17,139 nt of DNA from a bacterium (GTDB lineage Bacteria; UBA9089; CG2-30-40-21; SBAY01): assembly GCA_040757115.1 (NCBI GenBank), contig JBFLYA010000074.1, forward strand, positions 1 through 17,139, read 5' to 3'. The notes under the pieces were generated by a model. It did not search any database, had not been told where the DNA came from, and was given only the letters and a program-made list of their open reading frames with translations. Positions 174 through 17,118 of the stretch are shown here, one piece after another. A program made the translations under genes and the position numbers. The stretch's first letter is position 1; every line of letters begins with the position of its first letter.

Positions 174-3100
174 CTAAAACTTAAAGTCCACCCTGAATCG
201 TCCCTCGTAACCGTAGAAATTTTTATCCTTTTCTAATTTATTTTGAGTATAACCTATCTTCCCACCTAATGTGCCAGTAACATTCTTTTGTAATTCATAA
301 GTTCCACTCATATCAACTGAATATTCATTTGTATGGACGGTGAGTCTATTGTTTTCTTTTTTCTTTTCTAACTTAATTTTTAGAGTGGTATCGGTTGTAA
401 GTCTTTTCTTCAGACTAAGTTTACGGCCAAATGGGAGTTTAACTGGTTGTGGTCTTGTAATATCATGCTTTATTAGAAAACTGGGTGTAATATTAAATAG
501 CGAGTCGTTAAGCCCCCCTTGTTTTTTGGTTTTAGAGTTTTGATGGTCTAATTTAAACTCTGTATCTAATCCTTGTTTCCATTTTCGTTTCCAGATTAGA
601 GATGGTTGAAGTTGAGTTTTAATCGTTGTTTCATTGGATTGTGTTTTACTCCAGGTATATTTATTGGTAAAATATGTTCTATCTGAGGAAGATGTGCCTA
701 ACAATTTGTTATATTTTGGGAATGCCGTCAATAAATTAATTCCCATATCTAACTCATAGGAATCGGTTAATGACCAGGTTAAGGAACTCTGGTTTTGACC
801 TTTTTCATCCGTTTTAGTATAATTCAAAGATGTTTTTTCCAGAGGTTTCCATGGCGTATACCAATTACTTCTTAACTCATATCCCCGTTTATTGCTGGCT
901 GACCTTCGCTCACCGCCAAATGACGGATATTGACCTGTTTTTGGCCCCTCTCCTTTTAATAACTGACCTTTATAATAATCATTATAAATATTTTTTATGC
1001 AGTCCAACAAACCTAATTCGGCTAAAAGATTATTATAATTAGCCGAGACATCAAGGGTAAATTTAGGGGTAAAGGTAAAAATCTTATATCTTGGCCAACC
1101 TTTTAATTTCGGAAACCACTCAAAAGGATTCAGTTCTTTTTCCGAAGTCAGTCCAAAATGAGCGCTGGTATTAATATCCTTTCTCCGATTGGTAGATGTT
1201 CCTGCATAAGATTCCTGGTATATCATCCCGCTGTCAACTCGAGGATTGATAAAGGGAATACCACTATAAACTATTCGGTCAAACTTTTGTTCAAGTTTCC
1301 TTGAACTAAGGTAATATTTTGTATCATCCTGAGCCAAATTTTGTGTTTTTTTCAAGGTTTGAGTAAAATTAGACATAGATTTACCTGTTAATGTTTTTAT
1401 TGGCGTCCATTCTAAATCCACTCGTTCATCCTGGGCTCTAGTTAGTATCCGTTCATTTTTTGTTGTTTCTACCTGATATTCCTTTTTTGACCAATCTTCG
1501 TTATGTTTATAAGTTGAGGTAAGACCAAGTTTTTCACCCGTTGGTATCCACCTGAATATCTTCTTTGGAAATGTGTAATTATAGACATAAGTCGTATCGC
1601 CGTGTAGATTTTCATAAGTTTCATCCTCTTTTTTACTTCGGCGGTCGGTATTGATTATCTTACGGTCGCCCCAGGCGTTAAGAGTAATATCCGGAAACTT
1701 TGGTATTTTTTTAGCGAGTTCCTTAATCTTAAAATTTGTTGATAATTTTTGGTATTTTGCCGTAGTTTGCCCACAATTGTTATTAAGCATATTTTGACCA
1801 ACAAGTGGGTCAAGTTTGCTGATGTCATGAAACCATTCATATTTAAGCGGTAAAAATTTTATTCTGGTGAAATTTAAAGTTAAATCTTGTCTTGTCGTAT
1901 CATCATTTTGAGGTGCTCGACCAATACATTCAAATTCACCATCTATGACCTTTTCACTCCAATCAAGGCTAAGATAATCTTTAAATTTAGTATTAATTGC
2001 AACTTTTCTTGCCATACCATTTGATTCTTTCGCCTCAGATAAATGAATTTCATTAACATAAATTTCGCCGCTAATTGATTGGGTGGTGGATGTATTTTCA
2101 ACCCCCACGCTGAGCCATTTGACATCATCAAAGGTAGGGTTATTTTTAGCCTCATAGCCATAGGGTAGTTCGGTATAATTATAAGGTGGTGTGTTTGAAC
2201 CTTTTCTTTTTTCTTCCTCAATCACACTAATTAGTTTATTTTTAAAATCATCCAGATTAATACTTATCAATCGCCACCCTGTGAAGTCAACCGGAAGTGT
2301 GTATCCAAAGTAATTATTTTCATTTAACCCAAATCTTATGAAGAATTTTTCAGATTGACTATCGCCATAGAGCCAGAATTTAAGATATTTATAATCATTA
2401 TAACCTTGTTGAGTCTGAAATGTGCAGTAGGAATAACCTTTTGTTATAGTAGTAGGAGTTTGAGACCCAGCGGTTGTTGGTTCTAAGTCATATTTTAATA
2501 CCAGCGCCTCTTCTCTTTTCATATCTTCATCCGGGTATAGTTCTTTATACTCAGCGAAAGTTCTAATGGAGCTATAAACATCATCTTCTGCATTCTTTGA
2601 GCTAACCGTAAATGTGCCTTTTCCATAAGGAGTAACCGTGCCCATACTCCATCTGCCGCTACCAATAAGTCCAAGACCACCAACACAGATTTCACCTTCC
2701 GTAGCAGTCTCTGTGCCTTTAAATCGTAATCGGATATGTTTAATAGCACTCAAGCGTGGTGTTCCGGTGCCTATTTGTGCCTTTGATAATGGAATAGACC
2801 ATAACTGCCAATCTCCTATTTGATATTTAATACTAACCGTTCCCCCAAACTCTTTAAAATTCAAGACAAAATAGTTCTCGTTGACACTTAAGATACCATC
2901 TCCGTTTAAATCTTCTGTATCAAGTTGATTATTATCGGCGCCTATTTGAGTAGTTATACCATCAAGATATTGAAATTGCCAGCCCGTATCTTCATTCTGA
3001 TTAAGCACATAATCATTATTTACATCTTCTTTTTTCGGCAACCTTCCTTCTCCTCCTATACCATCGGCGTTTTCTGAAACCTCACCTAAATCAATATACA

Positions 3101-6100
3101 ATTCATCTATCTTATTCAGGTCACTGTTTCTAAGCCAGATTTCTAAATGTGTATAATCAGTAAAATCAATGGGCGTATTAGATAGCGGGGAAACAATAGA
3201 AATCCAGGAATCTGTTCCAAAATCCGTATAATGAAGTCGCAGGACATTTTCTTCTACCGTATCATCATCTTCCCATTTGACATTCTCTTCATAATCATAA
3301 GGACCTGATATTTCGCTTATTGGTCGATAAGCAGGTGCGGTCATAAGATTTCCATAGCTATCTTTGCAATATAATAATTTAGCCCTTTTATTTGTTTGCG
3401 GCAGACTACCGAGTTGCCAGGCGTTTTCATCCATAGAAATTGTCCTTGCATCCTCCACGCCTTCCATAGAATCTATAATTGCCGAGCCAAAGGTATTTTT
3501 ATCCTTGAAGGATTTAGCCACTTCCCCACCAATGGTTATATCAAGGGGTAATTTATTATCCATCTTAAACAGATTTTTCAACAGAGGGAGAACTTTAATC
3601 GAGGCATTGACATCTACTACCTGTAAATTTCCAAGTGTTGGGTCAGAAACCTTAGGTATTTTTTTCAACTTTTGTGCACCTTCATAAAGATAAGTAGAAC
3701 CTATGGAAAAGTTGTCATTTAGTTTAAACTCACCACGCAAACCGGCTATTGTTTTCTGGTATTTTGTCCCGATAAAAGGTGTGTATTCATAATCTATTTT
3801 AATCGTTGTATTTTCAGTGATATTTATATGCGGCATAAATGTTAAAAAACCGGTATCATAGTCAATAAAATAATCTGTATTAGGCGTTAATAATTTCCCA
3901 TCAACATAAATCTGTTCACTGCCTTCAACAATGTTCAAATAACCTAACATATAAGTCTTTATTTTAGTAGTATAACTTCCTATAATCGTATATTTATGCT
4001 GTTTGGAATAATCATCATTTGGATTATATGAAACAGATAGGAGTTCAAGATAATCTTTCAACTCGTTAATATGGGCATTTAAGAAAGGATTCGTTTCTGT
4101 GCCTCTCAGGTCAAAACAGGTCATATCTGGAAATTCTATAATTCCGGTCTCATGGTCGATATAATCCTGATTAATTGTCGGGTTATCATCAATCTTACCA
4201 TCACCATTATTATCCAATCCAAAGATTTGTAAATAATAGTATTCGCCTGTATCTTTGGTATTATTATTATTTTTATCAAAAAAATTCTTACTGGCGTTAT
4301 CTATAATCTCTAATTTAAGGTCTGTATCTGTTGGGATACCTTTTTCACCTATGGTGTAGCGGTTTTTCATTTCAAAAATATCATCTTCTACATAAGCTAC
4401 GCCTGGTTCAATCATAAGTATAGTGCCCGGGTTATTTATATCTCCAGAGTATTGTTGTGGAAAATATTTACCGGTGTTATCTCTAAAAACTACACCCACG
4501 ATGTAATCTCGACCAACATTTTGTTTAAAGGTAATGATGCTATCCCCATTATTATAGGTATAATCCTCCCCGTTGTATTGGATATCAAAACGGCCGGTAT
4601 AAGTTTTACTTCCAATTATCGCCGTTGCCTGACCAATATGTTTAGGTGGGTTATTATTATTACCATTTTTATCATCAATATATACTGCCTCTAAAGTAAT
4701 GGGAGTAGCAATCGTCCCCAGTTCCTGCGAGAATAAATAGTAATATTTTTGGGCAAGATAACTTGTATCCGCTCGATTGATATTTACTATTCTTCTATCT
4801 CCTTTGAATTCTTTGGTTACTCTAATTCCTTTAGTTCTACTGGCAATACCCCAGAGGTTAGTTTTCTTACCTAATTTTGCCTCAGCACTCACACCAAATA
4901 CCTGCTGATTATAGTTTACAAATTCAGTGTTAGGGGCACTGAATTTAACATCACCAAATTCTACCTTTTGAACAACCTCTTTATTATCACCTTGATAATT
5001 TATATAGAATTTTTGTTTTTTATTCTGGTCAATATCACTATAGTCAACTTTAATATTGATTTTATTTTTTATAGTGCCTTGAAGTAAGACCGTTAGCTCC
5101 TGGTGGATATTAATTCCCGAGGTAAATCCACCGCCAGGCTTTTCCTTATTTTTACGCCGTTTAGAATCAAGAAATTCAGAATTTCCTGCTTTTATATCAA
5201 TTACCTTTGTCCCGTCAATCTGTAATTTTGAATCTATGGGTAATTCGCGGTCAAGGAAAGCATTCAAATCAAACTCTTTCTGTCCTGCTAATTCTTCTTC
5301 TCTCTTTTTTCTTCTTTCCTCTTTTCTTTTTTCCTTTTCAGATTTTTTAGCCAGTTTTTCTGGCTTTTTTTCTTTTTCAGCCGGTTCTTTAGTCACTTTT
5401 TCTGGTTCTTTTTTCTCTAATTCAGATTTTTTCTTTTCTTCAATCGCCTTTCTTTGAGCCTCTTCCTTTTCCCCCTTTTCTCTTTCAGCCTTTTCTTTAG
5501 CCAATTTTTCTGCTTCTTTTTGTGCTAATTCGAGTTTTTCCTTTTCTTCAATAATTTCCCTTTTTAGTTTTGCTTCCTCTTCTACTTTTTTAGCGGCTAA
5601 TTCTTTAATCCTTTTTTCTTCTTGTTGTTTTGCCTTTTTCCGAGCAAGTTCCTGTTCAATATCTTCTTCTATTAATTGTAATTTTTCTTCAAATTTTTGT
5701 TTTTCTTCCCGGGCTATTTTTATCTCTAATTCTTTCATTTTTTGTTCTTCTTCTTCAATAAGTTTTTGTTTCTCCTCGAGGATTTTTTCCCTTCTTTGTG
5801 CCAACTCCTTTCTTTCTATTCGGGCTATTTTTTCTGCGGCTCTTTTAATCTTGTTGTAGTGATCTCTATCAAATTTTAGTTTAATTTGATATGGTATAAT
5901 TACCTCAAACTCTACCTCAGGTTCAAGTTCTCCTATCTTTTCTTCTATTTTAGAGATAGGTTTAAGTAAGCTAATCTCTCCCTGGGCTAATGATTGATAT
6001 GGGGAGGTAAATGCTTGTTTTCTGGTGGTAGTTTCAACTTTTGAGGCAGTGGATTTTTTAGCAGAAGGGGTAAGCAATTCTTTGTCTATCACTAATTTTT

Positions 6101-6170
6101 CAGTTAATAAGGTTTGAGCCCAGACATTAAGCGGTATAAATAATATTAGAAAAACACACCTTTTAATCAT
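174..6170 (-). CDS. sprA: SprA/Sov-like T9SS outer-membrane translocon with N-terminal coiled coil
   Basis: The family forms the very large outer-membrane beta-barrel channel of the type IX secretion system. Residue numbers assume the ATG at 6170 (1998 aa), because upstream ATGs overlap the promoter and this one begins a clear signal peptide (MIKRCVFLILFIPLNVWA, then QT). Residues about 108-298 are an almost unbroken Lys/Glu/Arg/Ala coiled coil. The SprA core starts near 300, with SGINIHQELTVLLQGTI at 351-367 and the QKVEFGDVKF region just after. A second signature, KIPKVSDPTLGN followed by MEGVEDARTISMDENAW, lies at roughly 830-925 and matches the family's KVGDEP...DDFEG...AW pattern. Several Asp/Asn-rich loops resemble calcium-binding sites. 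The C-terminus alternates hydrophobic and polar residues and ends in Phe, as outer-membrane barrels do. Bacteroidota SprA is about 2400 aa. No ruvA neighbour is present, unlike in Bacteroidota. Family assignment is strong; activity in this organism is inferred. Confidence 0.85.
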   Translation of the reverse strand: MIKRCVFLILFIPLNVWAQTLLTEKLVIDKELLTPSAKKSTASKVETTTRKQAFTSPYQSLAQGEISLLKPISKIEEKIGELEPEVEFEVIIPYQIKLKFDRDHYNKIKRAAEKIARIERKELAQRREKILEEKQKLIEEEEQKMKELEIKIAREEKQKFEEKLQLIEEDIEQELARKKAKQQEEKRIKELAAKKVEEEAKLKREIIEEKEKLELAQKEAEKLAKEKAEREKGEKEEAQRKAIEEKKKSELEKKEPEKVTKEPAEKEKKPEKLAKKSEKEKRKEERRKKREEELAGQKEFDLNAFLDRELPIDSKLQIDGTKVIDIKAGNSEFLDSKRRKNKEKPGGGFTSGINIHQELTVLLQGTIKNKINIKVDYSDIDQNKKQKFYINYQGDNKEVVQKVEFGDVKFSAPNTEFVNYNQQVFGVSAEAKLGKKTNLWGIASRTKGIRVTKEFKGDRRIVNINRADTSYLAQKYYYLFSQELGTIATPITLEAVYIDDKNGNNNNPPKHIGQATAIIGSKTYTGRFDIQYNGEDYTYNNGDSIITFKQNVGRDYIVGVVFRDNTGKYFPQQYSGDINNPGTILMIEPGVAYVEDDIFEMKNRYTIGEKGIPTDTDLKLEIIDNASKNFFDKNNNNTKDTGEYYYLQIFGLDNNGDGKIDDNPTINQDYIDHETGIIEFPDMTCFDLRGTETNPFLNAHINELKDYLELLSVSYNPNDDYSKQHKYTIIGSYTTKIKTYMLGYLNIVEGSEQIYVDGKLLTPNTDYFIDYDTGFLTFMPHINITENTTIKIDYEYTPFIGTKYQKTIAGLRGEFKLNDNFSIGSTYLYEGAQKLKKIPKVSDPTLGNLQVVDVNASIKVLPLLKNLFKMDNKLPLDITIGGEVAKSFKDKNTFGSAIIDSMEGVEDARTISMDENAWQLGSLPQTNKRAKLLYCKDSYGNLMTAPAYRPISEISGPYDYEENVKWEDDDTVEENVLRLHYTDFGTDSWISIVSPLSNTPIDFTDYTHLEIWLRNSDLNKIDELYIDLGEVSENADGIGGEGRLPKKEDVNNDYVLNQNEDTGWQFQYLDGITTQIGADNNQLDTEDLNGDGILSVNENYFVLNFKEFGGTVSIKYQIGDWQLWSIPLSKAQIGTGTPRLSAIKHIRLRFKGTETATEGEICVGGLGLIGSGRWSMGTVTPYGKGTFTVSSKNAEDDVYSSIRTFAEYKELYPDEDMKREEALVLKYDLEPTTAGSQTPTTITKGYSYCTFQTQQGYNDYKYLKFWLYGDSQSEKFFIRFGLNENNYFGYTLPVDFTGWRLISINLDDFKNKLISVIEEEKRKGSNTPPYNYTELPYGYEAKNNPTFDDVKWLSVGVENTSTTQSISGEIYVNEIHLSEAKESNGMARKVAINTKFKDYLSLDWSEKVIDGEFECIGRAPQNDDTTRQDLTLNFTRIKFLPLKYEWFHDISKLDPLVGQNMLNNNCGQTTAKYQKLSTNFKIKELAKKIPKFPDITLNAWGDRKIINTDRRSKKEDETYENLHGDTTYVYNYTFPKKIFRWIPTGEKLGLTSTYKHNEDWSKKEYQVETTKNERILTRAQDERVDLEWTPIKTLTGKSMSNFTQTLKKTQNLAQDDTKYYLSSRKLEQKFDRIVYSGIPFINPRVDSGMIYQESYAGTSTNRRKDINTSAHFGLTSEKELNPFEWFPKLKGWPRYKIFTFTPKFTLDVSANYNNLLAELGLLDCIKNIYNDYYKGQLLKGEGPKTGQYPSFGGERRSASNKRGYELRSNWYTPWKPLEKTSLNYTKTDEKGQNQSSLTWSLTDSYELDMGINLLTAFPKYNKLLGTSSSDRTYFTNKYTWSKTQSNETTIKTQLQPSLIWKRKWKQGLDTEFKLDHQNSKTKKQGGLNDSLFNITPSFLIKHDITRPQPVKLPFGRKLSLKKRLTTDTTLKIKLEKKKENNRLTVHTNEYSVDMSGTYELQKNVTGTLGGKIGYTQNKLEKDKNFYGYEGRFRVDFKF

Positions 6171-6190
6171 CACTATTTCCCTATTGTATA

Positions 6191-6219
6191 ATGATACCAT
6201 ATAATTCAATTAAATGCAA
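6191..6219 (-). promoter_or_regulatory. Sigma70-like promoter of the sprA-like gene
   Basis: On the minus strand, TTGCAT (6214-6219), a 17-bp spacer and TATCAT (6191-6196) precede the ATG at 6170. The expected transcription start near 6184 leaves a leader of about 14 nt containing AGGGA. This supports the 6170 start over the in-frame ATG at 6209, which would lie upstream of the transcription start. Confidence 0.6.
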
Positions 6220-6998: not shown

Positions 6999-8219
6999 TC
7001 ACCCCTTCTGGGTTAATGAATTATAGACTTTAATTGTTCCCTCTGCCATACTTTCTAAACTAAACTGCCTTATTATTTTTTCCCGTGCTTTTTTGGCTAT
7101 CTTTTCAGCCAATGCTTTCTCTTGCAATATCCTGATAATTTCTTGCGTTAAAATCTGGATATTACCAGGCGGGACTAAAATCCCATCTTCATTATGGGTA
7201 ATAACTGTAGGCACACTGCCAAGATTAGAAACTATCACCGGTTTCTCACAAGCCATTGCCTGAATTATGGTTAAATCATAACCATTGATACGGATAGTTG
7301 CATTGACAAAGACATCGGCTAAATTATAAAACAGGGGTAACTCCTCATAAGGCACAAGTCCTGTGGTAATAATATTTTCCCTTAGTCCTGCTCTATCAAT
7401 CAGTGTCTCTAAATCCTCTCGATAATCTCCATCACCTACGATGATTAATTTAGTCCCTGGAATACTCTTAAGGATAGCAGGCATAGTTAGGATAATGTTT
7501 TGGATTCCTTTTTCTTTAGTCAATCTGGCCACACCTAAAATAACTTTACCTGCTTGATTTATTTTGTATTTTTCTCTTAATTCGGTGCTATTTTTAGGAG
7601 CAAATAAATGCGTATCAACTCCATTATAAACCACAAATATATCGCTATCCCTGGTTTGATAAAGGAACTTTATGCGTTTTATTTGTTCATTACTTGTAGC
7701 AATGATAGCATCGGCTCTCATAAGAGCTTTACGAGATACAAAGAAATAATTATAAATATGATATAAAATCCTGCGTATAGATAAAAAGGCATTTCGTATA
7801 TCTTTGTAAGAGGAAAGTAATACACCCCACGCAGACTTTAGCTCATCAAGGTTTGTGCCATGTAAAGAAATTACCGTCGGGATATTGTATTTTTTATTTA
7901 ATCCCTCTAAAAGAAAAGGTATTCCTCCACCACTTTGACCATGAACAACATCAAATTTTTCCAGGGTATGTAACCTGATAAATTCCTGGACACTTTTTCT
8001 ACACCATGCCCACGAATATTTACCAGGTCTTGTTCCCTTTGTATAATATATTTCTATGCCATCGATAACCTCGTATTCTTTACCTTGTGGATGTTGGGTG
8101 GTAATCAAAATTACCTTATGACCTTTCTGGGCAATCCCTTTACAAATCATCATCGTATGGTCTTCCAATCCACCTTTGGCATGTACCGGTATAGAGCGGG
8201 CTAACATACAAATTCTCAT
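6999..8219 (-). CDS. GT4-type glycosyltransferase (GT-B fold)
   Basis: It probably transfers a sugar from a nucleotide-sugar donor during synthesis of a surface glycan or lipopolysaccharide at the inner face of the cytoplasmic membrane; the exact substrate cannot be read. The ATG at 8219 (406 aa) is chosen because AGGAG sits 8 nt upstream and the protein then starts with the usual beta-strand MRICMLARSIP. The in-frame upstream TTG overlaps that ribosome site. The acceptor-side loop HAKGGLEDHT is at 13-22. The donor domain has ILGVARLTKEKG (228-238), LIIVGDGD (258-265) and AMACEKPVIVSNLGS (321-335). The usual E-x7-E motif reads Asn312-x7-Gln320, so both Glu positions carry amides. It has its own promoter and stands alone between two repeat-rich gaps. 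Family is secure; specificity is unknown. Confidence 0.93.
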   Translation of the reverse strand: MRICMLARSIPVHAKGGLEDHTMMICKGIAQKGHKVILITTQHPQGKEYEVIDGIEIYYTKGTRPGKYSWAWCRKSVQEFIRLHTLEKFDVVHGQSGGGIPFLLEGLNKKYNIPTVISLHGTNLDELKSAWGVLLSSYKDIRNAFLSIRRILYHIYNYFFVSRKALMRADAIIATSNEQIKRIKFLYQTRDSDIFVVYNGVDTHLFAPKNSTELREKYKINQAGKVILGVARLTKEKGIQNIILTMPAILKSIPGTKLIIVGDGDYREDLETLIDRAGLRENIITTGLVPYEELPLFYNLADVFVNATIRINGYDLTIIQAMACEKPVIVSNLGSVPTVITHNEDGILVPPGNIQILTQEIIRILQEKALAEKIAKKAREKIIRQFSLESMAEGTIKVYNSLTQKG

Positions 8220-8270
8220 TCTTGATGCTCCTTTCAAGTAACTCTTTCACTTTTGCTCATTTTTGGGAGA

Positions 8271-8499: not shown

Positions 8500-8955
8500 T
8501 TACTTAACACCAGGTGGAGTAATAGTCTCTTTTATCTCTGGTGCCTCTCCAAAACTGAGACTAGCCGACATATCGCCCACATAGTCGTTCCAATGTGGAC
8601 AGGCGTAATCTGCTAGTCCTTGCCAGGTTACAGGATCAAGTCTTGCCCTTATGGTATAATCAGCTCTTGTAATGTTTCCCTGTGCGTTAATGTCATAAGC
8701 GTTGCCAAAGATCCCTATTTCTAATACATTGTCTCCCTCTACAGATACAAACGCTGCTGCTCCATGAACAGTGTTCTCTGCCCCGACACCAGCGTAGATA
8801 CCTGCTATGTCAAAATAAGGAGCAGGATCTCCATCATATCCCAATTCAAATTCCCAATTCCCAACTGTTAAAGTTACTACGGCGGCGGAACTTGCCGTTA
8901 TCAGAGAGAACACTAAACTCATCGCTAATATGGTTACCCTCATTACCTTCTTCAT
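8500..8955 (-). CDS. Small secreted protein of unknown function
   Basis: I do not recognise this 151-aa protein. It has a clear signal peptide (MKKVMRV, then a hydrophobic run) with likely cleavage after ASSA near residue 24. The mature part is about 127 residues, acidic, rich in Gly, Ala and aromatic residues, and looks beta-rich (WEFELGY, AYFV-like strands). It has a single Cys at 119 within YACPHWNDY and a proline-containing tail (ITPPGVK). No lipobox, sorting domain or PEP-CTERM motif is seen. An excellent AGGAGG (8965-8970) sits 9 nt upstream of the ATG. It is monocistronic: promoter at 9495-9523, a roughly 530-nt structured leader and a terminator at 8412-8451. That arrangement suggests a well-expressed but conditionally controlled exported protein; this is inference. 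Confidence 0.85.
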   Translation of the reverse strand: MKKVMRVTILAMSLVFSLITASSAAVVTLTVGNWEFELGYDGDPAPYFDIAGIYAGVGAENTVHGAAAFVSVEGDNVLEIGIFGNAYDINAQGNITRADYTIRARLDPVTWQGLADYACPHWNDYVGDMSASLSFGEAPEIKETITPPGVK

Positions 8956-9488
8956 CTTTTTTCACCTCCTTTCTTTTTAAAGATTGCGGAAATACAAAAT
9001 GCGAGCTAAAAAACAGAGGTTAAATCTCCATCAGCCAGAGAGATTCACCTGTGAAAAAGCTTATTTGTTGCATCAGTCATAGAAATCTCACAAACGCATA
9101 GTTACATCCTTTTTGCTTTTAGCCACAGATGTTACCACACCTTCCGGCTGATAATTTTAGCTCACTTTAGCCTTACCTGAGTTTTTTTTCAGGCTTTCCG
9201 CGGCTATCTTATCCTTCCCACTTGATTTATAAATCGCACCCTTGTCTTTCAGTGCTCAAAATATATCTCAAGTGAAAGGTTGACCCTCTTATTGTGCAGA
9301 ATGCAGTTACCCTCCTACTATCCTTGAAATAGTCGAGTTTTTTATCATCGACTTTCAACGGAACTTCCCCTCTATTTAAAGACAAAAATTTAGCACAACC
9401 ATTTGATTTTCAATAAGATATAGTGATATCTCTTTTTTTCTAATTCCTATCTACAATTGAAAGAAGGATTTAATTCCTCATCCCTTAG
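8956..9488 (-). promoter_or_regulatory. Long structured 5' leader, candidate riboswitch or attenuator
   Basis: From the expected transcription start near 9488 to the ATG at 8955 there is no credible ORF but a chain of complementary segments. They are: 9324-9358 (TTGAAA and GTCGA arms, 11 pairs with a 2-nt bulge); 9213-9279 (CCTT plus CACTTGA arms); 9168-9206 (outer TAGCC/GGCTA, inner CCTGA/TCAGG, separated by an internal loop containing GCGGAAAG); 9121-9149 (outer AGCC/GGCT, inner AGGTGT/ACATCT with GGTA loop); 9055-9120 (AAAAGC/GCTTTT); and the terminator-like stem at 9008-9053. A possible 11-codon ORF (ATG at 9080, no good ribosome site) ends in the 5' arm of that last stem. I cannot match the leader to a known riboswitch class. 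Confidence 0.6.
9008..9053 (-). terminator. Terminator-like hairpin in the leader
   Basis: On the minus strand AATCTC (9040-9045) pairs with GAGATT (9023-9028), and AGGT pairs with ACCT outside it; CA and TG extend it after a one-base mismatch. The stem is directly followed by TTTTTT (9013-9008). It lies about 50 nt before the start codon, upstream of the AGGAGG, where a transcription attenuator would be. Its loop is 11 nt. Confidence 0.6.
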
Positions 9489-9494
9489 GATTGT

Positions 9495-9523
9495 ATAATA
9501 GCATATTAATTAAATTTTGTCAA
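9495..9523 (-). promoter_or_regulatory. Strong sigma70 promoter of the small secreted-protein gene
   Basis: On the minus strand, TTGACA (9518-9523), a 17-bp AT-rich spacer and TATTAT (9495-9500). It lies just outside the inverted-repeat element (9545-10198) and points away from it. The expected start near 9488 defines the long leader. Confidence 0.75.
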
Positions 9524-9544
9524 GCATTTTTTAAAAAAAATAAT

Positions 9545-10198
9545 AAAAAATTTCGACCTGTATGGTTAGAAATTATAAACAATGATAAGACTATGGAGTT
9601 AGATAATTTGAAAGCAATTTTTGTATGTGTATAGCGTGCTACAGTATGAGGGTATAAATAATTCCGTAAGATTTAATGTATCCCGCAGATTTCGCAGATG
9701 AAACGCAGAAATAAAGGGATTCGAGATTCGGGAATAAAAGAATCCCCTAACCACGAAATCCGAACCCCGAACCCAGTTTTCAGAGGAAACGGACATGAGC
9801 CAAGGCTCACAAAGGGCAATGAAAATGGGAGAAGGACAACCCCCTAACCCCCTTTATTAAGGGGGAATATGTGTTCTAAACCAGAGGATACGAGTCTGTG
9901 GATACTATACTAATTCGCTAATCTCTAATTCACTAATTCGCTATTTTCAGGGGAAACACTCATGAACCTGCGGCTCACAAAGGGGGATGAAAATAATGGA
10001 AGAACAACCCCCTAACCCCCTTTATTAAGGGGGAATATCTGTTCTACACCATAGGATACGAGTCTGTGGATACTATACTAATTCGCTAATCTCTAATTCA
10101 CTAATTCGCTATTTTCAGGGGAAACATCAACGATAATCTGCGAAATCTGCGGGAGATAGTCCATATTCAAAACCTAACCATACAGGTCGAAATTTTTT
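9545..10198. repeat. Non-coding element bounded by nested inverted repeats
   Basis: The outer arms, 9545-9569 and 10174-10198, are a perfect 25-bp inverted repeat containing CGACCTGTATGGTTAG. A second perfect inverted pair, TCCCGCAGATTTCGCAGAT, lies inside at 9681-9699 and 10136-10154. A 168-bp tandem duplication fills much of the core. No transposase or other credible ORF is present, and I see no clear target-site duplication. It fits between the lpxB stop (10213) and the next promoter (9523). It resembles a MITE or composite repeat; mobility is inferred. A diverged relative of the outer arm is at 6223-6252. Confidence 0.7.
9777..10125. repeat. 168-bp tandem duplication
   Basis: Two copies (about 9777-9943 and 9944-10111) plus the first 14 bases of a third (TTTTCAGGGGAAAC, 10112-10125). 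Bases 9886-9958 and 10054-10126 are identical (73 bp); the first parts of the copies have diverged. Each copy holds CCCCCTTTATTAAGGGGG (9848-9865 and 10016-10033), a 7-bp stem with a 4-nt loop, and a CTAATTCGCTAATCTC-type short-period tract. Confidence 0.85.
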
Positions 10199-16775: not shown

Positions 16776-16862
16776 GTGAAATTTGATGAATTATCGAATA
16801 GAGTCATTGGATGCGCTATAGCGGTGCATCGAACTCTTGGGCCAGGTTTGCTTGACACCGTG
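16776..16862 (+). pseudogene. Truncated GxxExxY-family remnant
   Basis: About 29 codons reading VKFDELSNRVIGCAIAVHR followed by TLGPGLLDTV match the N-terminus of GxxExxY-family proteins (normally about 120-130 aa, function unknown). The similarity stops abruptly at 16862, where an ATTCACAATT-type repeat begins, so the conserved E-x-x-Y part is missing. The frame upstream is the CACGAAG repeat read as His/Glu-rich codons and is not considered part of the gene. I find no continuation downstream of the repeat. It is most likely dead. Confidence 0.7.
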
Positions 16863-16871
16863 AAGAGTGAT

Positions 16872-16968
16872 AATTCACAATTCACAATTGACAATTCACC
16901 ATTCACCATTATTAAGGAAATTTAGGGAAGAAATTGTGAATGGTGAATTGTGAATGGTGAATAGTTAC
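16872..16968. repeat. Inverted ATTCACCATTCACAATT repeats forming a hairpin
   Basis: The left arm (16872-16911) is a run of ATTCAC(C/A)ATT-type units and the right arm (16933-16968) holds the complementary units. ACAATTCACCATTCA (16891-16905) pairs perfectly with 16937-16951 (15 bp). The right edge is TGAATAGTTAC (16958-16968), the reverse complement of the GTAACTATTCA head motif. It interrupts the GxxExxY remnant. Confidence 0.8.
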
Positions 16969-16982
16969 AAAATTTGTAGTAT

Positions 16983-16996
16983 GAGGCTTTAGCCTC
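16983..16996. repeat. GAGGCTTTAGCCTC palindrome
   Basis: A 6-bp stem (GAGGCT/AGCCTC) with a 2-nt loop inside a non-coding stretch. Nearby AAGCC and GGCGAA segments may belong to the same repeat. No T tract follows, so it is not a convincing terminator. The rest of 16997-17068 shows nothing recognisable. Confidence 0.5.
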
Positions 16997-17068
16997 GCTT
17001 CTGGCAAGCCAAAAGGCGAACCTAATGGTTTTTGCAAAATTAACTTCCACTTTTCTGGAATACCATAA

Positions 17069-17118
17069 AATAAATTAAAAATCAAACATCAAAATGTAAA
17101 ATTACAAATCAAAAATCA
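17069..17118 (-). repeat. AT-rich dispersed repeat, inverted copy of 6899-6945
   Basis: Its reverse complement contains GATTTGTAATTTTACATTTT and then TTTGATTTTTAAT, differing at only a few positions from 6899-6945. It is non-coding. Confidence 0.6.

Follow-up and report, generated by a model that had tools for sequence, protein, structure and literature searches.

A probable composite leader upstream of an orphan secreted-type protein gene: a promoter-bearing dispersed repeat and an adjoining structured 5′ UTR

IS elements are well known to carry outward-facing promoters that drive neighbouring genes (PMC9330008), while riboswitch candidates from comparative analysis of intergenic regions are usually supported by several representatives and by covariation (PMC11109978). 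The leader of a 151-aa protein gene, located in a 17,139-nt stretch of bacterial DNA (the window), can be compared with both. Like IS elements and MITEs with outward promoters (PMC9330008), the repeat at its 5′ end is multicopy and has a complete predicted promoter that reads via the right end into neighbouring genes; one copy shows both inverted termini, and what appears to be a related element carries a transposase-like ORF. It differs from them in that the window copy is without its left terminus, no IS family is assigned and the promoter is predicted from the sequence. As for the riboswitch candidates (PMC11109978), the likeness lies in a structured intergenic leader before a single gene, competing predicted folds and a U tract; unlike these, the window offers a single core sequence, with no homologs from which to draw covariation and no consensus terminator, before a gene that gives no hint of a ligand. 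The locus illustrates how a plausible 'new riboswitch' can be a mobile promoter repeat with an adjoining structured orphan sequence; a check for multiple copies should come before riboswitch claims.

A dispersed repeat carrying the promoter

The initial annotation described a TTGACA-17-TATTAT promoter, a gene-free stretch of about 530 nt and an AGGAGG followed by a small protein gene, and these elements are all present. The promoter scores 11 of 12 matches and has an extended -10, there is no annotated gene in the ~530 nt between it and the 151-aa gene (nor any ORF of at least 60 aa inside the leader), and the AGGAGG precedes the ATG of the 151-aa ORF (Table 1).

The same annotation treated the leader as a single unit, and here we come to a different view: the promoter, together with the initial 167 nt of the supposed leader, belongs to a probably IS-derived repeat that is found before unrelated genes. 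A search of the window's own genome located these 167 nt at 7 further places (89-93% identity), and full or truncated copies of the promoter-bearing segment 9541-9357 (86-97% identical) occur in both this genome and the sister species (G001). A search of 20 relatives yielded 25 repeat matches in this pair of genomes (11 in the window's own, 14 in G001), some of them partial and many at contig ends; G003 and G010 had fragments of the promoter part only. A promoter-bearing mobile repeat should exist in multiple dispersed copies, and this one does. When aligned, the copies agree in promoter and hairpins as far as the right end GAGGGGAAGTTCCGTT, which they also share, and diverge immediately afterwards. 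A CRISPR-like reading of CTTTCAATTGTAGATAGGAAT was rejected, as every copy seen was the dispersed repeat and none an array.

A 244-nt copy at G000:C47 is bounded by both inverted termini; no clear target-site duplication was seen in the flanks of this sole complete copy. Only the right terminus is visible in most of the others, the window's included. Three left ends (G000:C121, G000:C82 and G001:C237) start with the same terminus, followed by the same promoter. In G001:C237, terminus and promoter are followed by a 121-aa ORF of a truncated element that appears transposase-like, judged by eye from its sequence and setting; it had no match in the family libraries. The dispersed copies, the 244-nt copy with both termini and the presence of the same terminus and promoter on a transposase-like element lead us to regard the promoter and the first ~130 transcribed nt as IS/MITE-derived. 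The repeat is a new example of an already known kind, namely the IS-derived, promoter-bearing repeat. The genes downstream of its copies are unrelated to one another. The ORF nearest to complete copies is often on the same strand, and several truncated copies face opposite-strand ORFs. In the sister contig G001:C41 (L010 1150-1592), two copies of the promoter repeat stand in tandem, the first lacking the right terminus and the second being a complete right half, after which the leader follows.

Table 1. Coordinates of the features discussed, in window positions
Feature	Positions	Strand	Remarks
Sigma-70-type promoter TTGACA-17-TATTAT, extended -10	9495-9523	-	common to repeat copies and to the left end of the transposase-like element
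IS/MITE-derived dispersed repeat with promoter; right inverted terminus present, left absent	9357-9541	-	copies in own genome and sister; divergence directly past GTTCCGTT
Right terminus GAGGGGAAGTTCCGTT, matching in inverted orientation the left end AACGGAACTTCCCCTC of the element	9357-9372	-	
53-nt block, predicted 5′ hairpin	9306-9358	-	also directly behind a promoter at G001:C395; overlaps 43-codon TTG ORF
Long hairpin CCUUUCACUUGA/UCAAGUGGGAAGG	9213-9279	-	in both predicted folds
Four-way junction (fold A), closed by UAGCCGCGGA/UCUGUGGCUA	9120-9206	-	predicted
Fold B long-range helices, 5′ arms	9143-9165	-	9165-9155 with 9001-9011; 9152-9143 with 9030-9039
Fold B helices, 3′ arms, including T6 tract 9013-9008	9001-9039	-	predicted
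Weak terminator-like stem, then T6	9008-9054	-	below terminator consensus
Ribosome binding site AGGAGG	8965-8970	-	mostly paired in full-length ensemble (energy prediction)
151-aa orphan protein, signal-peptide-like start	8500-8955	-	

Folding and distribution of the 3′ part

Several self-complementary segments had been noted in the leader. They are present, and its predicted stability exceeds that of shuffled sequences (z -4.2 for the 533-nt span). The signal resides in the 3′ part (z -4.0 for 9356-8956), the value for 9488-9357 being ordinary (z -0.7). In 280-nt windows across the whole 17 kb, the leader reached z -4.6 to -4.7 and ranked second, behind a simple inverted repeat at 16801-17080; coding genes also showed local z values near -5. 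A 161-nt core (9279-9119) gave z -7.8 (computed on 9280-9120), a value inflated by the choice of its boundaries by eye. Once boundary choice is allowed for, 2 of 150 shuffles do as well as the best 161-nt window in the real 3′ part when windows are placed on an 8-nt grid, and none of 150 does when that window is taken at its exact boundaries. The structure of the 3′ part is beyond chance, yet not extreme.

Two mutually exclusive folds are predicted. While the RNA 3′ end lies between about 9100 and 9040, the long hairpin (9279-9213) is accompanied by a four-way junction (9206-9120; fold A). Upon transcription of 9039-9001, the long-range helices of fold B and a GAGAUU:AAUCUC helix would take over, breaking the junction and pairing both the T6 tract and the terminator loop. 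Fold B is predicted to dominate once the RNA passes ~9030, with the probability of the junction falling to about 0, and is the better by 8.6 kcal/mol (-103.9 vs. -112.5 kcal/mol, respectively, for folds A and B). A switch would require just such a succession of folds, but the succession given here is an energy prediction from one sequence. The internal loop previously proposed around GCGGAAAG finds partial agreement: a local hairpin with the loop is seen in the full-length fold, but the best local fold differs, placing most GCGGAAAG bases in a 10-bp helix that closes the four-way junction.

Neither the intrinsic terminator nor the built-in attenuator of the initial annotation was recovered. 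The T6 tract, said to lie immediately upstream of the ribosome site, is in fact 37 nt upstream of it and is preceded by an imperfect stem of roughly -11 to -12 kcal/mol. A scan for the terminator consensus found 0 (shuffles give 1.2), and the probability of the terminator stem is ~0 in the equilibrium ensemble of the full leader.

No Rfam family matched the leader at the gathering score, and what appeared up to E 10 was at chance level; no tRNA or tmRNA was found either. The 3′ part (9356-8956) occurs once in its own genome, and a search of 60 relatives gave a meaningful match in G001 only, where its counterpart lies at the end of contig C41. In both species it directly adjoins the repeat. The sister contig ends at 9269, before the junction, which leaves a single sequence of the core; the 92 nt visible are 96% identical. 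A covariance model of 9279-9119, built from this single sequence, retrieved only itself from 290 genomes and, with laxer filters in 19 genomes of the phylum, itself and one weak match (E 0.4). No homolog of the core was detected in phages or plasmids. Absence of the leader from close relatives, named in the initial annotation as counting against a riboswitch, is nearly complete for the core, except that the one sister with the 5′ part breaks off at the end of its contig. Three sets of motif matches were discarded: CGACTATTTCAAGGATAG in G002 and G003 falls within a coding frame (primase-like by eye) and is not an RNA element, the pattern GCGGAAAGCC..GGTAAGGC gave 19 matches in viral contigs and GCCGCGGAAAGCC..GGTAAGGC 5 in genome contigs (near the estimated chance level), none of which rebuilds the fold.

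Homologous leaders could not be collected via the 151-aa protein, which has no homolog in the relatives, the genome contigs or the viral contigs and is an orphan in all searches. A fish-egg lectin match (E 0.002) and an AMIN-like match (E 0.18) are too weak to use, and the AlphaFold model of the 151-aa protein is unusable (mean pLDDT 39).

A proposed composite leader and alternative readings

We propose that the leader is probably composite, joining an IS-derived promoter repeat to a structured 5′ UTR that is itself an orphan. The first component would be a miniature IS-derived element, present as a partial copy next to the gene unit, whose outward sigma-70 promoter presumably starts transcription and which supplies the first ~130 nt of the transcript. 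The remaining ~400 nt would then be a lineage-specific structured 5′ UTR of the orphan gene, acting, if at all, via its fold alone: it would hold the ribosome site in a helix and alter mRNA stability and basal translation. We infer both this effect on translation and that no ligand is involved. On the simplest account, the structured UTR influences translation or mRNA stability unspecifically, if it does so at all. The repeat copies before unrelated genes, one of them with both termini, the element that combines the same terminus and promoter with a transposase-like ORF, the direct junction of 3′ part and repeat in both species, the confinement of the structure signal to the 3′ part, the mostly paired ribosome site in the predicted full-length ensemble, and the lack of both an RNA family and a consensus terminator are consistent with a composite. 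Against it, the competing predicted folds and two copies of GAGATT would suit a switch, and on the side of the repeat there are the window copy's absent left terminus, the lack of a clear target-site duplication even in the complete copy and the transposase call made by eye.

A riboswitch is a possible but unsupported reading. What stands of the sensing attenuator originally suggested is a structured 5′ region outside known RNA families with competing predicted folds. The idea of a new sensing RNA class is not supported: no homologous core was found, the downstream gene is an orphan, and the only hairpin that can be seen in the sister is weakened rather than compensated. In a riboswitch-like attenuator, the four-way junction of fold A would be the sensor: its stabilization would leave 9030-9039 and 9001-9011 free, allowing the terminator stem to form, and fold B would otherwise antiterminate. 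The predicted passage from fold A (RNA ends at 9100-9040) to fold B (after ~9030), the pairing of the T6 tract and terminator loop in the latter and the stability above shuffles all fit this scheme, but it is improbable in view of the 8.6 kcal/mol advantage of fold B, the near-zero probability of a stem that is no consensus terminator, the lack of homologs, covariation and an Rfam match, and an orphan gene that hints at no ligand. It is equally improbable that 9279-8956 represents a switch RNA of a new kind with a very narrow distribution, in which a four-way-junction domain competes with long-range helices to control a terminator or the ribosome site of the orphan secreted protein, under a mobile promoter. 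Should the 3′ core prove to be a switch, a poorly sampled phylum would have gained a regulatory RNA restricted to one lineage. A non-functional 3′ part, i.e. decayed intergenic sequence with many imperfect inverted repeats in a repeat-rich genome, is unlikely, though less so than a switch. The window has many inverted repeats and mobile pieces, its strongest fold is a plain inverted repeat, coding genes reach comparable local z values, and the 5′ hairpin is weakened in the sister. Decay is harder to reconcile with the lack of a second genome copy, the 96% identity over the part visible in the sister and the concentration of the fold signal in the 3′ part.

The 53-nt block (9358-9306) recurs at G001:C395, 91% identical and directly behind another promoter, upstream of two tandem small secreted-type proteins (L025 216-1142, minus; 86% alike). 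These have no homolog in other relatives and no significant similarity to the window's 151-aa protein; a G000:C290 match to the sister's small protein was rejected as a larger, unrelated protein. The block may correspond either to a conserved 5′ hairpin or to the first codons of a short ORF. The predicted hairpin is weaker in the sister ortholog (-4.5 against -10.4 kcal/mol in the window), an argument against its being under selection there. A 43-codon TTG ORF (9358-9227, minus) overlies the hairpin. The block would be the start of this ORF, rather than an RNA hairpin, in a leader-peptide or short-ORF system. No stop interrupts its frame in the window, in what can be seen of the sister, or over 20 codons at G001:C395, the TTG is preceded by GGGGAAG, and the sister's changes break the hairpin while keeping the frame. 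On the other hand, 3 of the 4 sister changes alter the residue, the G001:C395 frame diverges past KDS, no family match was found and the sequences are too few for a coding test. We consider such a system very unlikely, and favour the composite leader.

Surroundings of the leader

Just past the 151-aa gene, a strong hairpin whose 3′ arm is rich in T (8461-8409, minus; local z -9.5) is a better terminator candidate than the leader's own stem. Further downstream, a glycosyltransferase gene (6999-8237, minus) is absent from the sister G001 and 86% identical in G002, which belongs to another genus. A 2011-aa protein (174-6209, minus) with a long charged coiled region had no Pfam family above the cut-off; we take it to be reminiscent of SprA/Sov-type outer-membrane proteins. 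On the other side of the leader, a perfect 25-nt inverted repeat CTAACCATACAGGTCGAAATTTTTT (9545-9569 and 10174-10198) encloses 654 bp between the promoter repeat and lpxB. Also between the leader and lpxB is a 155-nt direct repeat (9804-9958 vs. 9972-10126, 94% identical), which occurs on the sister contig G001:C395 as well.
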